From Rhizobium sp. G21 (GTDB lineage: Bacteria > Pseudomonadota > Alphaproteobacteria > Rhizobiales > Rhizobiaceae), in NCBI RefSeq assembly GCF_014158035.1, contig NZ_JACFXW010000001.1:992001-1056000 (forward strand): a stretch of DNA of 64,000 nt, written 5' to 3'. Below are positions 3,885 to 18,081 of this stretch, in pieces; the first letter of the stretch is position 1, and every line of letters begins with the position of its first letter. The translations under genes and the position numbers were made by a program. The notes beneath the pieces are model-generated. The model saw nothing but the letters and a program-made list of their open reading frames with translations, was not told where the DNA came from and made no database searches.

Positions 3885-4019
3885 TCAGATCAGCACCGTC
3901 CGGATCGCCAGCCCGACCAGACTGACTGCGGCGACGCCGGCGATCCACAGGCCGAAGAACCAGAGGAGGCGCTTCCCCGCGGAAGCGCCTTTTTCGTTGC
4001 TTTCCAGCCTTTCATCCAT
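3885..4019 (-). CDS. DUF2474 small membrane subunit of bd-type oxidase (CydX-like)
   Basis: A 44-residue protein with one membrane segment (residues about 19-42, LLWFFGLWIAGVAAVSLVGL) and a charged N-terminus. DUF2474 proteins are encoded directly after cydB in cyanide-insensitive oxidase operons and are thought to play the CydX role of stabilising the complex. The ATG at 4019 overlaps the TGA of cydB by one base (TGATG), consistent with translational coupling. Confidence 0.8.
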   Translation of the reverse strand: MDERLESNEKGASAGKRLLWFFGLWIAGVAAVSLVGLAIRTVLI

Positions 4020-5021
4020 CAGTGATATCCTTCTTCCGGATCGACCTTGCCGCGAAACACCCAGTAGGAATAGGCGGTGTAGCAGAGGATCATCGGCACC
4101 AGCACCAGCGCGCCGACCAGCAGGAAAGCGAGGCTCAGATCGGCGCCGCCGCATCCCAGATGGTCAGCGAAGGCGGCACGATGTAGGGATAGAAGGAAAT
4201 GCCGATGCCGGCATAGCCGAGGATGAACAGGCCGAGCGCCGCCAGAAACGGCAGCGTGTCGCGATGCGCCTTCAGCCCGTAGAGCATCAGCGCGAAACAG
4301 CCCGCGACCAGAACCGGCACGATGACGCTGAAGGCGGCGGTCGGCCAGGCGAACCAACGGCTGAGATAGACGTCGCTGAGGAACGGCGTCCACAGGCTGA
4401 CCGCGCCCATGGCGACGAGCGTGGCGACCGCCGAAAGATAAGCCAGCCGCCGCGCCTTGGCGCCGAGTTCGCCATGCGTCTTCATCACCAGCCAAGTGGA
4501 GCCGAGCAGCGCATAGCCGATGACCACGGCGACGCCGGTGGCGATGGAGAACGGCGTCAGCCAATCCCACCAACCGCCGGCATAGGCGCGGTTTTCAATG
4601 CGGATGCCCTGCACCAAGGCGCCCAGCGCGATGCCCTGGCAGAGCGCTGCGGTGAAGGACCCGGCGAAGAAGGCCTTGTTCCAGAAACCCTGCCAGCGAT
4701 GGGTGCGCCAGCGGAACTCGAAAGCGACGCCCCGGAAGATTAGCCCCAGCAACATCAGGATGATCGGCATGTAGAGCGCCGGCAGGATGGTGGCGTAAGC
4801 GAGCGGGAAGACGGCGAGCAACCCGCCTCCCCCAGCACCAGCCAGGTCTCGTTGCCATCCCAGACGGGGGCGACCGAGTTCATCATCACATCCTTGTCGT
4901 GCTTGTCGGTAAACAGCGGATAGAGGATGCCGATGCCGAGATCGAAGCCGTCGAGAATGACATAGGCCAGCACGGCGAAGGCGATAATGGCCGCCCAGAT
5001 GAACGGATAATCAATGGGCAT
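4019..5021 (-). CDS. cydB: Cytochrome bd-type quinol oxidase subunit II, interrupted by two frameshifts
   Basis: Subunit II of the bd oxidase. The N-terminus (PFIWAAIIAFAVLAYVILDG, then WDGNETWLVLG) is in one frame, the central part (LLAVFPLAYATILPALYMPI onward) in a second, and the C-terminus (LAFLLVGALVLVPMILCYTA to VDPEEGYH) in a third. The first break is in a run of five C at 4829-4833 where six restore WLVLGGGGLLA. The second is near 4140-4142, where one extra base gives AAAPDLSLAF. Restored, the protein is about 334 residues, normal for the CIO type. Its ATG lies inside the end of cydA. Two one-base deletions in a core respiratory gene suggest sequencing error more than decay. Confidence 0.8.
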
Positions 5022-6420: not shown

Positions 6421-6806
6421 GGCGCCAACTCCTTTTTGTCGCGCCCTCAGGACGGGCGCTTGCTATATTACGCTGGCGTCATGAAATGTGTAGCTGCAAC
6501 TGACGTTTCTCAATTGGACAAGACGCCACGCGGTGTGTCGCCGCAGGCGGAACGGGAGGGGTGGGGATTATTCGGGGGGGATTACCCAGCAGAGCCATAA
6601 GACGCGACACTTAACCTGATGTAAACGCCTTAGTTGCAATCTTTAAACGCGCGCGGTACCGAACAGTATCGAATAGATTACCGTGATTGAAAACGATCAC
6701 TACCGTGCACGGCCTACTGCCCTACGCAACAAATTAAACATGAAAATCGGTTGTGGTGCAGCATTAGGATACAGCATTGATAAACCGTTTCTTTAGGCAT
6801 TAGAAC
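6421..6806. other. Intergenic region at the island's left edge
   Basis: This 386-bp stretch holds the promoter area of the leftward cyd operon and of the rightward three-gene island. Composition changes from GC-rich to clearly AT-rich after about 6600, which I take as the island border. I see no tRNA, integrase, IS end or convincing direct repeat here, and no clear FNR box upstream of cydA. Confidence 0.5.
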
Positions 6807-7214
6807 GTGATCGATCTCCCTCAAAAAGCGTTGAAACGCCGAGCTGGTGAACTCGCCAAAGCTGCAGGTGAAGTGACAAACGAAAACTCTCGTGCTCTGC
6901 TGCTTTTTTATGCCGCCGAATGTGGATTAAAGGCTATATACATGGCAAGAAACGTGTTGCGCACCACGTCCTCGTCGCACTCAGCTAGGGCTGCAACGTA
7001 TTTCGTTCATCGCCTAGATGAACTCATTGTTGAACTAAAAATTCCAGCTTCTACGATTGCACCGCGTCCGGCTAGCTGCGTATTTGCTGGCAAAGCCGTC
7101 CCCGTGGGAGAATTGAACCAAGTTTGGAGATATGGTGGCACGCTTGAAGACCAACCTGCTGTGCTTAAATGGCTGGAAATTTTGGTTGCCTACGTGAAGA
7201 AAGAATTGTCATGA
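6807..7214 (+). CDS. HEPN-like small protein, first gene of three-gene accessory operon
   Basis: A 135-residue, mostly helical protein. The pattern LLLFYAAECGLKAIYMARN resembles the first long helices of HEPN-fold proteins, and RAATYFVH fits the loose R-x(4-6)-H spacing of HEPN RNases, although the residue after Arg is Ala rather than the usual polar one. The region after it (VGELNQVWRYGG) is conserved-looking, but I cannot name it. Its stop overlaps the next start (ATGA), so it is probably co-translated with the ATPase downstream. Base composition is much more AT-rich than the flanking chromosome. The HEPN assignment is an inference from pattern only. Confidence 0.6.
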   Translation: MIDLPQKALKRRAGELAKAAGEVTNENSRALLLFYAAECGLKAIYMARNVLRTTSSSHSARAATYFVHRLDELIVELKIPASTIAPRPASCVFAGKAVPVGELNQVWRYGGTLEDQPAVLKWLEILVAYVKKELS

Positions 7215-8593
7215 CAATTAACGACTCAGGCTCAGCTGCGGTAACGCAGCCACCTATTACGTGGGTGGATGTTGCTCGTCGACTATCTATTTTGGAGCCA
7301 ACTGACCCGCTTTGGAAGTCTAAACCGACAGATTTGCTTCGAGTCGATGTCGATTGGTTGTCGGCTACATTTTATGTTACTGACCTTAATAGCAAAGATG
7401 CAGTGCTATCTTGGCTTGCTGAAATTTTTCCAAGCCGAGTAAATAGTGGCCAACACCTGCTACTCGATGGACCAGGTACCTCTAGTCGATTAGCTATCGA
7501 TTTTGAGGAGATAGAGCAGCATTCTGCACGACCACGTATCAGCCTCGGGAACATTGAGGGCAAGGTTAGCTTTGAAAGCGGAAATTTTCTAAACGCATCA
7601 CGAGCAGTACCACTGATCGCTTGCCATAGTGTCAAGGGTGGCACTGGGAGGACGACAACAGCAATTGCTCTAGCAACGCTTCTTGCGAAACGCACAGTTA
7701 AACCTATACTAGTCGTTGACGCAGATTTAGAGGCACCAGGACTTAGCTATCTGTTTCGGGCAAGTCGTACAGAAGCATTAGTGTCACTGGAAGATGTCGT
7801 AGCTCTGGCACATGCTGAAGGTGACATCGACTATCCGCAAACTGTTGCTTGGACTGCTAACCTTCTGCAGGGACACAGGCTCGGAGAACTCGTTATTCTT
7901 CCACTCAGGAGGATGTTAGGTGAATTGGCCAGCTCTGCTATTCGTGCGGAGCACCTAACATCAGAAAAACGTCCGTTCGCGTTAGCCGACCTTCTTGAAA
8001 AGATTGCGATTACGATAGGTTGCGGTGCCGTTGTTATAGACGTTCGAGCTGGACTTGTGCCTATTGCCGCGCAACTCGTCCTTGATCCTTCGGTTTCGCG
8101 TGTTTTTGTCACTTCATTGGCCGGGCAATCTCTGGAAGCTACGGAAGGATTAATAGCATTTGTGGCAAGAGAGATGCGAAAATCTCAAGTTTCAGCTTCT
8201 CCACCGCTCTTGGTAGTAAATCGAATACCGGGAATATTAAGAGATTTGGGGCAAGATGAAGGAATTCTGGCACCGGTTTTGGAGCAAATCGAAAGAAGTC
8301 TGCTTGCAGAGTACACGCAGGAGGCAGCTCCCGATGAAGCTGTTCTCGACAATGCGGTTGAACTGAATCCTCTATTCGTCGCCAAGCTAGGTGAGGTTAG
8401 TGACCTGCAAACACCTTCCAGTCGCTGGGAGGGATTCTCTAGCCAATTAGCAAGTTCTGGCTTTATACAACGCCTTGAACCACAAATTGAAGCATGGTTG
8501 GACTTAGTATTCGAGGGAAAAGATCAAATTTCGCCTGCGTTGCCCCCCTCCCAACGCAACCTACCGATAGCGTCGATGCTCGAAGGAAGCTAG
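7211..8593 (+). CDS. MinD/ParA-like ATPase with KGGTGRTT P-loop
   Basis: A 460-residue protein. The N-terminal 130 residues match nothing I know. The SIMIBI ATPase domain follows, with the deviant Walker A as SVKGGTGRTTTAIALA (about residue 144), the aspartate motif VVDADLEAPGLSYLF, and a switch-II-like VVIDVRAGLVP. The signature first Lys is kept, but the P-loop Lys of KGGxGK is Arg. The DxRAG switch differs from the DxPPG of partition ParA proteins. This separates it from chromosome/plasmid partitioning ATPases, and no parB or parS is nearby. I place the start at 7211, where ATGA overlaps the upstream stop and a GAAGAAAG ribosome site precedes it. Confidence 0.7.
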   Translation: MTINDSGSAAVTQPPITWVDVARRLSILEPTDPLWKSKPTDLLRVDVDWLSATFYVTDLNSKDAVLSWLAEIFPSRVNSGQHLLLDGPGTSSRLAIDFEEIEQHSARPRISLGNIEGKVSFESGNFLNASRAVPLIACHSVKGGTGRTTTAIALATLLAKRTVKPILVVDADLEAPGLSYLFRASRTEALVSLEDVVALAHAEGDIDYPQTVAWTANLLQGHRLGELVILPLRRMLGELASSAIRAEHLTSEKRPFALADLLEKIAITIGCGAVVIDVRAGLVPIAAQLVLDPSVSRVFVTSLAGQSLEATEGLIAFVAREMRKSQVSASPPLLVVNRIPGILRDLGQDEGILAPVLEQIERSLLAEYTQEAAPDEAVLDNAVELNPLFVAKLGEVSDLQTPSSRWEGFSSQLASSGFIQRLEPQIEAWLDLVFEGKDQISPALPPSQRNLPIASMLEGS

Positions 8594-9984
8594 AAAGTTT
8601 TGCTGCGAACCTAGTTGAGGCGGAGAATGCGGACGAGCCTGTTAATGATCCGCTTATAACACGTCCGATACGGGCACTCGCGATGGAAACTGCGCAGTTA
8701 CCGATTGTGGTAATCGAAGGAGCAAAAGGCACCGGTAAAACACTTACTGCCCGGTTTCTTATAGCTAGATCCACACTAAGTGGACTTGCCCTAAGCGCGG
8801 ATGTTAGCACCCCTAAATTAGACGCCGATCTATTACCCATATTGGGATCTATACAAGCAAGCGAAAAATATTTGGGTGAAATTGATAACGCACGGCGATC
8901 TATTGCTATGAATATGGGAAACGGCGACCCCCAACTTGCTGGAGATAGCCGAGCCTACATTCGCGAGAACTTGCGAAATAACCTTTCTGAACGTGAGTGG
9001 ACTGAAACTTGGCTTGATGTTATAGGTTGGTCAGCAGGAGTAAATCCTGGGAAACAGGGCAGCGGCGCGTTGCTTATTGAACAACTGCGAAAAACCAACA
9101 GACGCATCGTAGCTGTTATAGAGGGGATAGAAGAAACATACGAGTCCATATCTACTCACAGCGTGGCGACGATGTTGCGCTCTGTATTAATTGATTTACC
9201 GATTAAGCTGCGAAGCGAACCGGGACGCCCACTGGGTTTGCTGGTTTTTGCGAGAAGAGACAGTGTAGGCTCTGGTGTCCAACAGAACCTGAACCAGTTC
9301 AGGTCACAGTACAAGGAGTTCGCGCTGACGTGGAATGAAGGCGATGTTCTGGAGCTTGCCGCTTGGATAGCTACCAAATCTGGCGCTTTGAAGTTATGGG
9401 ACCGTAATTTTTCATCCTTGCCTCAGGATGAAAAGGAGCGACTTCTGTTCAAACTTTGGGGGAGGAAGCTTGGTCCAGACGATCAACCAGGACGCGAGCG
9501 TGTGAAGGAAGCATATACAGCTGGATGGGTAATCGCAGCCTTGTCCGACCTACAGGGACGTCTTGTCGCACGTGATTTGGTTCGGTTCTTGCAGTACGCC
9601 GCAGGCATCCCGGTTACGTCGGATTCCTATGCAGAACGACTTCTCGCCCCTTCTGCGTTAAAAGCTGCGATCGGCCCAACTAGCAAGCGCAAAGTCGCGG
9701 AGACAGAAGAAGAAATAAAGGATCTCTCGGCAGTATTTAAGAAATTTCGCGAAGCACAAAACTCAATCAAGGCGCCAATAGACCAAGGAGCCATAACTGA
9801 TCTCCAGCTATCAGCTGAAGATATTGATCTACTTAAACTTCATGGAATAATTTTGGGTGATTCTCCGCCGTATGAGGTGCCTGAATTATTTAGAATGGGA
9901 CTGGGTCTTCGACATGCCGGAGCAAGGCATTCTGTACTTGGCACTAGACGACGGGCTAGGCAGAGGCTGAAGGATACAGGCTGA
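8494..9984 (+). CDS. P-loop NTPase (STAND/AAA-like) of the accessory operon
   Basis: A 496-residue protein with Walker A GAKGTGKT near residue 77, preceded by the strand PIVVIE. A Walker-B-like strand RRIVAVIEGIEE lies near 210, and a sensor-like strand PLGLLVFARRDS near 250. The C-terminal part (about 400-496) looks like a small winged-helix or helical domain ending in an Arg-rich tail. This layout suggests an ATP-driven switch, but I cannot match it to a named family. The only ATG before the P-loop that leaves room for the domain is at 8494, giving a 100-bp overlap with the previous gene. Given the indels elsewhere, a base error near the C-run at 8543-8551 could alter this boundary. Confidence 0.65.
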   Translation: MVGLSIRGKRSNFACVAPLPTQPTDSVDARRKLESFAANLVEAENADEPVNDPLITRPIRALAMETAQLPIVVIEGAKGTGKTLTARFLIARSTLSGLALSADVSTPKLDADLLPILGSIQASEKYLGEIDNARRSIAMNMGNGDPQLAGDSRAYIRENLRNNLSEREWTETWLDVIGWSAGVNPGKQGSGALLIEQLRKTNRRIVAVIEGIEETYESISTHSVATMLRSVLIDLPIKLRSEPGRPLGLLVFARRDSVGSGVQQNLNQFRSQYKEFALTWNEGDVLELAAWIATKSGALKLWDRNFSSLPQDEKERLLFKLWGRKLGPDDQPGRERVKEAYTAGWVIAALSDLQGRLVARDLVRFLQYAAGIPVTSDSYAERLLAPSALKAAIGPTSKRKVAETEEEIKDLSAVFKKFREAQNSIKAPIDQGAITDLQLSAEDIDLLKLHGIILGDSPPYEVPELFRMGLGLRHAGARHSVLGTRRRARQRLKDTG

Positions 9985-10059
9985 ACTGTCAGCTTAAGTC
10001 TGTATCCATGTCTAGGTACGTGCAGACGGGATAACAGGCGAACAAAGCACGGTTTTGCC

Positions 10060-10462
10060 TCAATGAAAATTCCTCCCCGACGGCATCACCTTCCTCGCCA
10101 TCTCGGCCTGCTGCCTCAGATCCTCCTTCAGATCCGGCATTTCCTTGAACAGCGCGGTCACCGCGGCGCCGGGTTTGGCGCGGGTGCGGCTTTCGGGCAC
10201 AGGGCGGCGGACTTCGTCGGCGTTGGCGAGGCTTTCGATCAGGCGGCCGTCGTCTGAGAGTTTGGCGAGGCAGTCGGTGAGGTTTTCGACACTTTCGGCC
10301 ACGACTATGGATGACGCTGTCGGCCTTCTGGACGCGGCCGCGCACGCCCGCCAGCCGCGCGCCCATGACCACGGGCCTGTAGGCCTCGAACACCTTTGGC
10401 CAGACTATGGCGTTGGCGACGCCCGTCTCTTCCTCAATGGTCATGAAGATCACGCCCTTGGC
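10060..10462 (-). pseudogene. Diverged duplicate of the dnaE2 3' end
   Basis: This is a second copy of the last ~400 bp of dnaE2 (compare 13149-13550), in the same orientation, ending in the same SGRNFH-stop. By hand alignment the copies are roughly 93 % identical. The translated differences are mild (for example [13 protein letters not shown] against [13 protein letters not shown]). One extra T at about 10305 breaks the frame after VIH. Homology stops abruptly at 10462, about 40 bp before the end of the AraC-type gene. There is no start and no catalytic domain, so it is a remnant. The divergence suggests it came from a related strain rather than from a recent tandem duplication. Confidence 0.9.
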
Positions 10463-10503
10463 CGAGCTCGCGCGCCTCTCCAAACCCGCCCGCGCCCTCA
10501 CAC

Positions 10504-13148: not shown

Positions 13149-16100
13149 TCAATGAAAATTCCGCCCCGACGGCATCACCTTCCGCGCCAGCTCGGCCTGT
13201 CGCCGCAGATCCTCCTTCAGCTCCGGCATTTCCTTGAACAGCGCGGTCACGGCGGCGCCGGGCTTGGCGCGCGTGCGGCTTTCGGGCACGGGGCGGCGGA
13301 CTTCGTCGGCGTTGGCGAGGCTTTCGATCAGGCGGCCGTCGTCAGACAGCTTGGCGAGATGGTCGGTGAGGTTTTCCACGCTTTCGGCCACGACATGGAT
13401 GACGCCGTCCGCCTTCTGGACGCGGCCGCGCACGCCCGCCAGCCGCGCGCCCATGACCACGGGCCTGTAGGCCTCGAACACCTTCGGCCAGACGATGGCG
13501 TTGGCGACGCCGGTCTCGTCCTCGATGGTCATGAAGATCACGCCCTTGGCAGAACCCGGCCGCTGCCGCACCAGCACGAGCCCCGCCACCATGACGCGGG
13601 CGCCATTGCGGACATGGTCGAGATCCATGGCCCTGATAATGCCCAGCCGTTCGAAATCAGGCCGCAGGAACGAGATCGGATGCGCCTTCAGCGACAGCGA
13701 CTGGGTGCGGTAATCATGGATGACATGCTCGCCCTCGGGCATTTTGGGCAGGCAGGCGCACATCCTGTTCATGGGCGAGCAGGTCGGCGCCCTTGTTTTC
13801 AAACAGCGGCAGGCGTTCGGCGGCGCTCTTTTCATCGAGCGCGCGCACGGCCCAGAGGGCGGCGCGGCGGTCGAGCCCGATGGAGCGGAAGCAATCGGCG
13901 TCCGCCAGTCTTTCGATCACGGAGCGGGTCAGGCCCGAGCGCAGCCAGAGATCGCGCACCGACGTGTAACCCTCCCCCTTCGCTCGACCAGCCTGAGCAT
14001 ATCGGCCTCGGCCAGCCCCTTGACCTGGTGAAAGCCGAGCCGGACGGCGAAGCGCGTGCGGATGACGCCGGCCATGGAGCGGTGGCGCGGATGGATGCGG
14101 GCAGGATCGAAAGCCTGCGGCTCGAGATCGCTCGCCCAGTTGGAAAAATTCACATCGGGCTCGCGCACCTCCACCCCATGTTCGCGAGCGTCGCGCACCA
14201 GCTGCGCCGGCGCGTAAAAGCCCATCGGCTGGGAATTGAGGATGGCGGCGCAGAACACATCCGGATGCCGCGCCTTCAGCCAGCAGGAGGCGTAGACCAA
14301 GAGCGCGAAGGAGGCGGCGTGGCTTTCGGGGAAGCCATATTCGCCGAACCCCTCGATCTGCTTGAAGCAGCGCTCGGCGAAATCGGCCTCATAGCCGCGC
14401 GCGACCATGCCCTCGACCATCTTCTTCTGGAAGGTGTGGATAGTGCCGACGCGGCGGAAAGTGGCCATGGCGCGGCGGAGTCTGTCGGCCTCCGACGGGG
14501 TGAAGCCGGCGGCGACAATGGCGATCTTCATCGCCTGTTCCTGAAACAGCGGCACGCCGAGGGTGCGGCCGAGCACCTCTTCGAGCTCCTTGCTGGGATA
14601 GGCGACCGGCTCCTTGCCCTGGCGGCGGCGGAGATAGGGATGGACCATATCGCCCTGGATTGGCCCGGGCCGGACGATCGCCACTTCGATGACGAGATCG
14701 TAGAAGGTTTGCGGGCGAAGACGCGGCAGCATGCTCATCTGCGCCCGGCTCTCGATCTGAAAGACGCCGAGCGTATCGGCGCGGCAGATCATGTCATAGA
14801 CCTCATAGCGCTCCTTGGGGATGGTGGCGAGCGTCAGTTCCCCCTGATAGTGGCGCTTGATCAGGCCGAACGCCTTGGCGATGCAGGTGAGCATGCCGAG
14901 CGCGAGAATATCGATCTTGAGGATGCCCAAAGCATCGAGATCGTCCTTGTCCCACTCCACCTGCGAGCGGCCCTCCATGGCGGTGGGGGTGACGGGGACC
15001 ACCTCGTCGAGCCGGTCGCGGGTGATGACGAAGCCGCCGACATGCTGGGAGAGATGGCGGGGAAAGCCCATCAGGACCGAAGCGTAATCCAGCACGCGGC
15101 GGGTGGTGGGATCTGACGTGTCGAGGCCGGCGGCGCGCGCCTCGCGCTCGTCCAGCGCGGCCGACGACCAGCCCCAGACGGCGCCCGACAGCGCCGATTG
15201 CTGGTCTTCCGACAGGCCAAACGCCTTGGCCGTTTCGCGACCGGCCGAGCGGGCGCGATAGCTGATGACGGTGGCGGCGATGCCGGCGTGCTCGCGGCCA
15301 TATTTGCCGTAGATATACTGGATCACCTCCTCGCGCCGTTCATGCTCGAAATCGACATCGATATCGGGCGGCTCCCGTCGCTCCGGCGAAATGAAGCGTT
15401 CGAACAAAAGATCGGTCAGCGCAGGATCAACCTCGGTGATCCCAATGCAGAAACAGACGGTGGAATTGGCCGCCGACCCCCGCCCCTGGCAGAGAATGCC
15501 TTGCGAGCGGGCAAAGCGGACAATGTCCCAGACGGTGAGGAAATAGGGCTCGTAATCGAGTTCGCGGATCAGCGTCAGCTCATACTCGATCTGACCGCGC
15601 ACCTTGTCGGATACGCCATCGGGATAGCGCGCGGCGGCGCCCTCATAGGCGAGCCGGCGTAGCGTCTCAGCCGGCGTCTCGCCCGGCACGGCCTCGTCGG
15701 GATACTGGTATTTCAGCTCTTCCAGCGAAAAATTGAGCGCGTCGAAGAAGGCGTTGGCGTTGGCGATGGCTTCGGGATGGCGGCGCAACAGCCGGGCGAT
15801 TTCAGCAGGTGATTTCAGATGGCGCTCGGCATGGGCGGCGAGCCGGAAGCCCGCGGCCTGCACCGTGACATGCTCGCGAATGGCGGTGACGACATCGGCG
15901 AGCGGCCGCCGGTCCGCCTCATGCATCAGCGCGTCATTGGTGGCCATAAGCTTGGCGCCGGTCTGGCGGGCGATGTCGGCGAGCGCGTGGTGATGGCGGC
16001 GGTCGAAGCCGTCATAGCGCGGCGTCAGCCCGAGATGGACATGATCGGCGAAGGCCGCGCGCAGGCGGGCGAGCAGGTCCGGCAGGCGTTCGAAATCGGC

Positions 16101-16484
16101 AAGGCCCGGCATGACGGCCAGCATCATCCCCTCGCCCCACTCCAGGAGATCGGCCTCATGCAGCAGGCAATTGGCCTTGCCGCCGCGCTGGTTGCCGAGG
16201 CTGAGCAACCGGCAGAGCCGCCCCCAGGCGCGGCGGTCGCGCGGATAGACGAGAATGTCGGGCGTCTCATCGGCGAAGCACAGGCGCGCGCCGGGCCGAT
16301 AGGCCAGGCTGGCCTCCTTGGCGGCGAGATGCAGCCGCACCACGCCCGCCACCGTGTTGCGATCGGCCAAACCGATGCCCGACAGTCCCAGCCGGGAGGC
16401 GGCTACAGTGATTTCTTCCGGATGGGAGGCCCCTTCCAGAAAAGAGAAATTGCTGCGAAGGCCGAGTTCGCAGAAGCGGATCAT
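13149..16484 (-). CDS. dnaE2: Error-prone DNA polymerase DnaE2 (ImuC), two frame breaks
   Basis: The catalytic alpha subunit of the mutasome for SOS-induced translesion synthesis. The PHP domain opens at [20 protein letters not shown]. The polymerase core shows the block [10 protein letters not shown] and the metal-binding [13 protein letters not shown], both intact. The C-terminal OB-fold region follows. Two breaks occur. A run of five C at 13974-13978 needs six to read [18 protein letters not shown]. Near 13750 a 4-bp tandem repeat (CTGC twice on the minus strand) displaces the frame before [14 protein letters not shown]. Repaired length is about 1111 residues. The ATG at 16484 overlaps the inferred imuB stop by one base. 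Confidence 0.88.
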
Positions 16485-18081
16485 CAGGAAAACACCCCTG
16501 AATGAACCAGCGCGGATCGTGATTTTCGCGCTCATAGAGCCCTTCGCGATAGAGCCAGTAGCGGCGGCCCGCCTCGTCCTCGATGCGGAAATAATCGCGC
16601 GACGGCGCGGTCTCGCCATCGATCCACCATTCGGGCGCGATGCGTTCTGGCCCCTCGGCGCGGGCGACGCGGAAGAAGCTCTTGCGCCAGCGGAAAGTCT
16701 TCGGCGGACCATCCGGCACTTCCGCCGTCGTCTCCACCGGTTCGGGGTAGGTCAGCATACGCAGGGGACGGACGGGCCGGTCGGCGGGCCAGACGGGCGG
16801 CCTCTCCTCCATCGCGAGCGCCGGCATGAAGCGGCCGGCGCGTTCAGGCATATGGCTTTCAAACAAAGCAGGCCGCGTGATCAGGTCGGGACCGAAGCGG
16901 GCGGCCATTTGGTCGATGAACTCCGTGAGACTGTCATCCGTTCGGCCGCGACCGTCGAAATCCGGCTGCGCCTCGTCGAACGGCGCAGACGTCAGTACGT
17001 TGAGCCGGAGCGTCTCGAAACCATAGCCGGCGTCGAGATCGTCCTGGGCGGCAGCCAGCCGGGCGCGAAACAACGCGGCGATGCGGGCAGGATCGCGAAT
17101 GGGCAGCGCCGCGCCGGCGCGGATCGGGAAAACCCTGCCATCGACGCGGAACAGCAGCAATTCGAACAGCTTGCCGCCCTCGCCGCGCGCTTCGAACAGG
17201 CTTTTGAGACTGTCGCCGAGATGGCGGAGCATAGCGAGAATCGCGTCCTCGTCGGCGATCGGCTCCGCGAGGCGCCGTTCGGCGGACAACGTCGCCACAG
17301 GCCGGCGCGGCGAGATCGGCTCCTCCTCGAGCCCGAGCGCCTGATCGAGCCGGAGCAGCAGCTTTGGACCGAAACGGCGGGCGAGCGGCGCACGCGGCTG
17401 GCCGATGAGATCGGCCGCCTGTTTCAGCCCCGCCTTGATCAGCAGCGCCACCGTCTCCTCCTGCAAGCGCAACGCCTTGACCGGCAAGGGCGCGAGCGCC
17501 TCCTCCATGGCCTCGGGCATGACGATGTCGCGGCGGCTGTAACGACACAGCGCCGAAGACAGGCCGGGCGCCGACGAAATCGCCGCCCGCGCCTCGAAGC
17601 CCATATGGAAGAGCCGCGCCAAGAGATCGCCGAGCAGCGCTTTTTCGCCGCCGAACAGATGCGACGAGCCGGTGATGTCGAGGAAGAGGCCGTCGGCGCC
17701 GTCGAGCGCCACCAGCGGCGTGTAGCGGTCGCACCAGTCGGCCACCGCCTCGATCAGCGCGCGATCGGCGGCGGGATCGGCCTCGACCACGTCGAGATCG
17801 GGGATCATGGCGCGCGCCTCGGCCGCGCCCTGGCCGGGCTTCAGCCCCACCAGGCGCGCCTCTTCATCCACCGCCGTCAACCGCACGGCGTTGCGCTGGA
17901 GTGCGGCGCAGACGACGGGCGGATGCTCAGGACGCCCGTGAGAACGCCACGACCTGCCCCATCGGATCCGGGCGAGCCGATCGGTCGCCAGACAGGGAAA
18001 CCAGAGCGCCAGAATCCGCTGGCTGGTCTGCGGGCCGAACAGCGATCCGGCCGGGCTCGATTGCGAGAAAGAGACAGTCAT
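16484..18081 (-). CDS. imuB: ImuB, catalytically inactive Y-family polymerase homolog; frameshift at 3' end
   Basis: A Y-family polymerase relative that lacks catalytic residues in known members and bridges ImuA, ImuC and the beta clamp. The N-terminus [20 protein letters not shown] is typical. The frame runs past the normal end (DPRWFIQG) into dnaE2. Adding one C to the run of four at 16495-16498 gives the ending WFIQGVFS and a TGA that overlaps the dnaE2 ATG as TGATG, matching family organisation. The nearest usable ATG (18081) puts the first ~150 bp inside the end of imuA. Repaired length is about 532 residues. Confidence 0.85.

Follow-up and report, generated by a model that had tools for sequence, protein, structure and literature searches.

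Within 64,000 nucleotides of the genome of Rhizobium sp. G21 (NZ_JACFXW010000001.1, forward strand, positions 992,001–1,056,000; hereafter the window) lies a small island of low GC content that encodes an HEPN-like protein (A), followed by two ATPase open reading frames (ORFs B and C). Comparison with relatives in other genomes indicates that B and C probably belong to a single gene, BC, and that the unit comprises two genes, A (approximately 140 aa) and BC. We consider it fairly probable, from sequence comparison and structural models, that A-BC is a horizontally moving two-gene operon directed against phages or other mobile elements, in which A would be an HEPN effector and BC a sensor or switch driven by nucleoside triphosphates. 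A role in defence is likely on independent genomic contexts, these being the cargo hotspots of P2-like phages and P4-like satellites and the interior of BREX-2 loci. What appears to be new is that the island holds a divergent form, probably with two genes, of a candidate that PADLOC has already catalogued as PDC-M28.

The BC double ATPase and its HEPN-like partner

A reading of the window from its letters alone (the sequence-only reading) had proposed three separate genes; there are probably two. Among the named loci retrieved with an alignment of B (the best 80 of 345 confirmed), B and C form a single ORF in 76, the exceptions being one locus in which they lie apart (L066) and three without C (L080, L133 and L135). 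Each of the 12 other full-length BC matches in 398 genomes of the phylum is a single open frame of 935–996 amino acids (aa), and the 61 genomes of the family contain, besides the window, one full-length match, likewise a single ORF. Along a profile of the fused family, built from 72 of the 76 fused loci (ORFs longer than 850 aa and with the better scores), window B covers positions 6–429 and window C positions 440–904. The closest named relative among the matches listed belongs to an alphaproteobacterial metagenome-assembled genome (L056); its 963-aa protein aligns with window B over residues 42–463 (62% identity) and, on the same chain, with window C over residues 452–959 (60% identity, with a long gap at the linker), and the neighbouring A is 51% identical to that of the window. 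There is also a second, three-gene branch in which B and C are truly separate genes. Among its 18 loci with full-length PDC-M28B matches, C is present in all and A lies directly upstream in 17 (L052 being without it), with C fused to B in L042 and split in two in L041.

Frame breaks in this assembly extend beyond the island, cydB (4019–5021) and dnaE2 (13149–16712) also being in frame-broken pieces. Aligned with the sister species G658, cydAB of the window shows two frame-changing indels in 2,404 columns and dnaE2 three in 3,450, whereas G658 and another sister, G656, have none between them in 2,449 and 3,331 columns respectively. Because five such indels fall within approximately 5.9 kb of cydB and dnaE2 and none separates the sisters, an error of assembly is judged the likelier cause, and an assembly indel is the simplest reading of the B/C split. 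That the frame change is instead real, and the window copy a decaying pseudogene that no longer works, is doubtful; relatives with a single BC ORF, together with one Escherichia coli strain whose BC is also annotated as two genes, speak for it, but A and both halves of BC retain their motifs. Decay of this one copy would in any case be compatible with a defensive role for the family.

Both halves of BC carry recognizable nucleotide-binding features. Window B matches NF047398, the KGGVGR-variant AAA ATPase, at E 3.1e-34 (119 bits, above the cut-off of 90), and the motifs quoted by the sequence-only reading are present, namely KGGTGRTT and DVRAG (its DxRAG) in B and GAKGTGKT in C. Both alignments of B (19 and 72 rows) show no variation in the signature Lys, in the Arg that replaces the P-loop Lys, or in the DxD and DxRxG motifs. 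C keeps a full P-loop and has IEGIE in its Walker-B region, of which the fused family retains the G and the last E; against NF047389, the Sll1717 family P-loop ATPase, it scores 32.7 bits, under the 75-bit cut-off. A structural model of the L056 BC protein, with a predicted local distance difference test score (pLDDT) of 88, has BrxC of BREX (9zll and 9zdx) and MinD/ParA proteins as its top matches (9zll at E 2.9e-5 and MinD 3q9l at E 5.9e-5), with a template modelling (TM) score for BrxC of approximately 0.3 by target length. BC may thus be described, on sequence and model, as a fusion of a KGGVGR MinD-like ATPase with a BrxC-like STAND/AAA P-loop ATPase. MinD/ParA-like domains, predicted to be inactive, occur in other conflict systems according to PMC7159879.

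The claim that the first protein is HEPN-like is borne out by a confident model. AlphaFold2, given 71 aligned sequences (the window and 70 of 72 references, L094 and L110 being dropped for length), predicted a helical protein with a pLDDT of 95.7, whose best structural match in the PDB by Foldseek is 2hsb, the HEPN protein AF0298 (probability 0.98, TM 0.52/0.55, E 0.12); the first 20 structural matches also contain sacsin HEPN and ST0689 HEPN. The A protein of Nostoc (L035) reaches the PF05168 HEPN family at 22.1 bits against a cut-off of 22.0, and the other A proteins scanned gave no HEPN match. Five residues, E38, K42, H68, R108 and Y109, are invariant in 94 of 94 A sequences, that is, the 71 aligned sequences and 23 added from the three-gene branch, BREX loci, plasmids, E. 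coli and a P2-like prophage (the added set omits L041 and L048 as short ORFs, L052, where no A was found, and L037 as a near copy of L036). AbiV and AF0298-like HEPN proteins are described in PMC3710099 as having an Ex3[KR] motif, having lost the motif His and carrying an alternative conserved His in an insert between helices 2 and 3. The predicted fold and conserved residues of A fit this alternative-histidine pattern, and we infer that A may be an RNase.

Distribution and genomic settings

The genes co-occur elsewhere, as the sequence-only reading would require. A profile of A found matches at E ≤ 1e-4 in 13 of the 398 phylum genomes, 12 of them at E < 1e-20, and in all 12 strong cases BC follows A directly on the same strand, the edges of the two matches being no more than 53 bp from each other. 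Counted from the other side, BC is present at full length in 12 of these genomes and as two pieces in the window, and 12 of the 13 (window included) have A, none being found at G404. Weak matches to A occurred in G063 and at a second place in the window's own genome, where an HEPN-like gene (L228, 5972–6738; E 2.4e-5) overlaps a 124-aa ORF in a stretch without a BC match. Among the best 80 of the 345 named loci, an A-like ORF lies upstream in 66 by a profile of the three-gene rows with the window, Burkholderia glumae and Nostoc A proteins, and in 75 by a profile partly trained on the same loci. Presence is patchy (13 of 398 genomes) and extends to plasmids, a prophage and satellites, and the genes match no housekeeping system; record titles for the family name Proteobacteria, cyanobacteria, actinobacteria, Lachnospiraceae and others. 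A single-sequence search with B recovered only itself in 289 genomes of the class and nothing in genome contigs or plasmids; such searches being too weak, family profiles and alignments were needed.

Three kinds of setting bear on function. In a predicted P2-like provirus (L216), whose flanks resemble Klebsiella phage Kp4861-1 (portal gene 99.7%, replication gene 98.5%), A and BC are the sole ORFs of at least 80 aa between the gpQ-like and gpA-like genes, an interval described as an anti-phage hotspot of P2-like phages (PMC9122126). A BC relative is present in 11 of 5,426 E. coli genomes (in pieces 68% identical to the query and covering 47% of it). In the three of these 11 that were inspected, A-BC is flanked by the tRNA-Leu integrase and the psu gene of a P4-like satellite, the copy in strain 4/2-1 having A as WP_016245208.1 and BC as WP_100774474.1; the int–psu interval of P4 is another published anti-phage hotspot, and HEPN is named among the domains of its uncharacterised cargo (PMC9122126). 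In one of the three strains (L231) an IS21 element stands beside A-BC, and in another, 2018-01-1CC (L232, 11665–14336), BC is annotated as two overlapping genes, being a single gene in the other two. The third setting is the BREX-2 locus, where the genes run pglW-A-B-C-pglX in L143 and pglX-A-B-C-DUF6079-pglZ in L144, and where A-BC sits between pglX and pglW in L098. The anti-phage reading offered by the sequence-only reading is supported, at the level of genomic context, by the P2 gpQ–gpA and P4 int–psu hotspots and these three BREX-2 loci.

Other surroundings are more varied. In L109, A begins at the end of an Eco57I-type methylase, and conjugative plasmids of B. glumae and Enterobacter have the system, the latter copy adjoining a TIR gene. 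Among deposited phages, a first query yielded a single weak and partial match and a second query yielded no match. Of the annotated plasmid regions inspected, four (L137, L138, L139 and L141) hold other or partial arrangements and not the A-B-C set; L138 (5483–7851) and L141 (5434–7854) have a distinct operon of two genes, the first for an MqsA-type antitoxin and the second for a 619-aa KGGVGR ATPase, and in L139 (5998–8202) a KGGVGR ATPase domain is part of a TIR-annotated protein, with two more TIR genes nearby. When 217 of 277 chosen neighbouring genes (113 and 104, after removal of 20 loci as redundant or lying at an edge and of genes of at least 1,600 aa) were scanned with PADLOC, matches included PtuA, AriA, UzuA, PglW, a type I restriction endonuclease and a DISARM-like methylase, and some were to housekeeping genes, such as RecG scored as Cas3. 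The PADLOC output counts families rather than genes, with no more than 25 families to a run, and hence we claim no ratio.

The site of the island itself varies between related genomes. The sequence-only reading had placed an AT-rich segment between the cyd operon and a dnaE2 tail, and indeed the island has 48.9% GC against 61.4% for the window, contains the start (7001) of its lowest-GC 3-kb stretch (scanned in 250-bp steps), and is flanked by cydAB on one side and a second, partial dnaE2 3' end on the other. By blastn, cydA directly adjoins dnaE2, with no insert, in the genus-mate G655; in G656 there is a copy of the dnaE2 tail as in the window, with a 2.2-kb AT-rich insert between this copy and cydA that encodes a 565-aa AAA ATPase matching the NsnB, AriA, Old and GajA models; and in G658 a 1.55-kb insert encodes a DUF4291 protein and a 159-aa ORF without matches. 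Cargo at the window site thus changes from genome to genome, and the cydA–dnaE2 gap is a cargo hotspot in the genus. Both ORF overlaps described earlier, ATGA and 100 bp, are where they had been reported: ORF B can be extended upstream (longest form 7169–8593, 474 aa) and starting it at the ATG at 7211 gives the ATGA overlap with A, while ORF C (496 aa) shares 100 bp with B (Table 1). The two dnaE2 3'-end duplicates bracket a regulator and an RTX-like protein. Genes similar to dnaE2 also occur near A-B-C in B. glumae (L036, 12060–16573) and near A-BC in L107 (4264–7764), perhaps by chance.

Table 1. Coordinates of the island, its ORFs and the corresponding site in sister species
Feature	Position	Strand	Remarks
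Gene A, HEPN-like, 135 aa	6807..7214	+	GTG start; E38-x3-K42, H68, W107-R108-Y109
Gene B, KGGVGR-variant MinD/ParA-like ATPase, likely N-terminal half of BC	7211..8593	+	NF047398, PDC-M28B, alignment
ORF C, P-loop (STAND/BrxC-like) ATPase, GAKGTGKT, likely C-terminal half of BC	8494..9984	+	PDC-M28C, fused-family profile
B/C ORF overlap	8494..8593	+	Poorly conserved linker of single-chain relatives; place of the frame change
Variable segment, A-BC where sister species have other cargo or nothing	6587..10057	.	blastn against G655, G656 and G658
Extra dnaE2 3'-end copy at island border	10060..10475	-	92–93% to 13149–13563; also in G656
Sister-species cargo at the cydA–dnaE2 site	L181 6498–8050; L182 6481–8645		

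Relation to catalogued and published systems

The sequence-only reading knew of no named system with this gene set; as a candidate, however, it had already been catalogued. Judged by E-values rather than by PADLOC's own thresholds and rules, the best catalogue match by sequence is the PADLOC candidate PDC-M28 (M28A-M28B-M28C), which has the same three components in the same order. Window B matches PDC-M28B at E 1.9e-15 and the adjacent C matches PDC-M28C at E 4.9e-6, in order, and A matches PDC-M28A weakly (E 0.038). The two differ in that B and C of the window are 15–24% identical to the aligned rows, nearly all of them three-gene loci, and that the window branch has BC as one chain. PDC systems are described as candidates without experimental test (PMC10855318). 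Within the paper collection searched there was no mention of PDC-M28 or Sll1717, and the term KGGVGR turned up nothing related; MinD, SIMIBI, KGG, Soj and Sll1717 are absent from the main text of a 2026 survey of BREX (PMC12839542).

Several published systems resemble parts of A-BC. A shares with the HEPN-T/AbiV/AF0298-type proteins of PMC3710099 its predicted fold, the Ex3K motif, the extra His in the helix 2–3 region and the motif Arg, but differs in being partnered by a MinD-BrxC-like double ATPase and, in the window, in its lack of a Pfam match. The same source describes a dyad in which an HEPN gene (MAE_18760) stands beside a ParA/Soj-type ATPase, a likeness to our locus; compared with A by description only, that HEPN family keeps Rx4-6H, and the account of the dyad does not speak of a second ATPase (PMC3710099). 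BrxC is among the best structural matches to the BC model and three relatives lie inside BREX-2 loci, but the TM score is low and A-BC forms a separate operon with no BREX gene beside the window island. Membership of the island in a BREX locus was rejected on its adjoining genes, which are cydAB and dnaE2, with no pglZ or pglX.

Long C tails occur in four loci of the three-gene branch (L043, L046, L047 and L055). The tail of L047 matches the DS-9 and DS-8 models, having a C-terminal metallophosphatase that matches both, followed by NACHT as in DS-8, a system validated against phage (PMC13092281). Metallophosphatase and NACHT domains were found in L047 and L046, the two tails scanned; A-BC differs from DS-8 and DS-9 in that long tails were seen in these four loci of the three-gene branch. 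Low-complexity, RDLARDWARD-like repeats are present in C of L043, L046 and L055.

Proposed role and its alternatives

The mechanism we infer would run as follows. In an uninfected cell A would be kept inactive with BC; a cue from infection would then alter the nucleotide state or assembly of BC; and A, now licensed, would cut RNA and halt the infected cell, an abortive outcome. Chances are about even, in our judgement, that A-BC and the three-gene PDC-M28 belong to a single widespread family of immune systems in which a MinD/BrxC-type hybrid ATPase senses infection and licenses an HEPN RNase whose active site is of an alternative His/Arg type. To our knowledge, no characterised defence system has such an ATPase licensing an HEPN RNase, and a literature search found none that combines a MinD/BrxC-hybrid ATPase with an HEPN switch.

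Several observations weigh against this candidate function, a defensive operon with a putative RNase effector. A Pfam scan of window A alone gave no match, no Foldseek match of the A model has E < 0.001 and TetR helical bundles are among the same matches, and the best hit of the A alignment against PDB sequences (E 0.045) was to a non-HEPN protein, none being convincing. The canonical Rx4-6H is absent: R108 is invariant, but neither the window sequence nor the invariant columns have a His at the needed distance, and hence A could be non-catalytic. No further defence gene was seen adjacent to the island in the window, and a phmmer search with BREX-2 proteins found BREX in the neighbourhoods of one of 98 relatives (L098, among L038–L135). 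In a viral collection the system is full length in only one of 12 loci. In the PADLOC control scans, far genes (101 of 101) and random regions (110 of 188 ORFs) matched defence models too, and the neighbour comparison was set aside.

The missing Rx4-6H is also the starting point for an alternative in which A is an HEPN adaptor without catalytic activity and BC is the working part, perhaps blocking phage DNA as a motor that binds nucleic acid or resembles BREX. The structural match to BrxC and the three loci inside BREX-2 would suit such a motor, but the invariance of E, K, H, R and Y in A suits an active site and the phmmer search found BREX at one locus, L098, among the 98, so that we regard this explanation as quite unlikely. 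A toxin–antitoxin (addiction) module, with A as HEPN toxin and BC as the antitoxin, maintained because it stabilises mobile elements rather than because it senses phage, is unlikely; relatives of A-BC do reside on plasmids, but BC, at approximately 900 aa and with two ATPase domains, is larger than any antitoxin known to us. A dyad of HEPN and ParA/Soj-like ATPase has been postulated as a toxin–antitoxin system (PMC3710099), whereas A-BC recurs in hotspots known for defence cargo and inside BREX-2 loci. The public annotation of B as a 'ParA family protein' and its MinD/ParA fold would suggest partition of plasmids or chromosomes, a role to which we attach almost no probability. The P-loop Lys of KGGxGK is Arg in all 19 and 72 rows, B has a constant HEPN partner and a fused second ATPase, and its carriers include P4-like satellites and a P2-like prophage; a partition role, which the sequence-only reading also denied, is rejected here on the P-loop Arg and the HEPN partner.

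The defence operon that we favour, if confirmed, would have consequences beyond this locus. It links a catalogued candidate to a two-gene form in two published defence hotspots of phages and satellites, one of them in E. coli, and its gene model should be corrected, in that the supposed second ATPase and the first are most likely halves of a single protein. Some proteins now annotated as 'ParA family' would then be immune switches, and the family offers a test of the alternative active site proposed for HEPN proteins.

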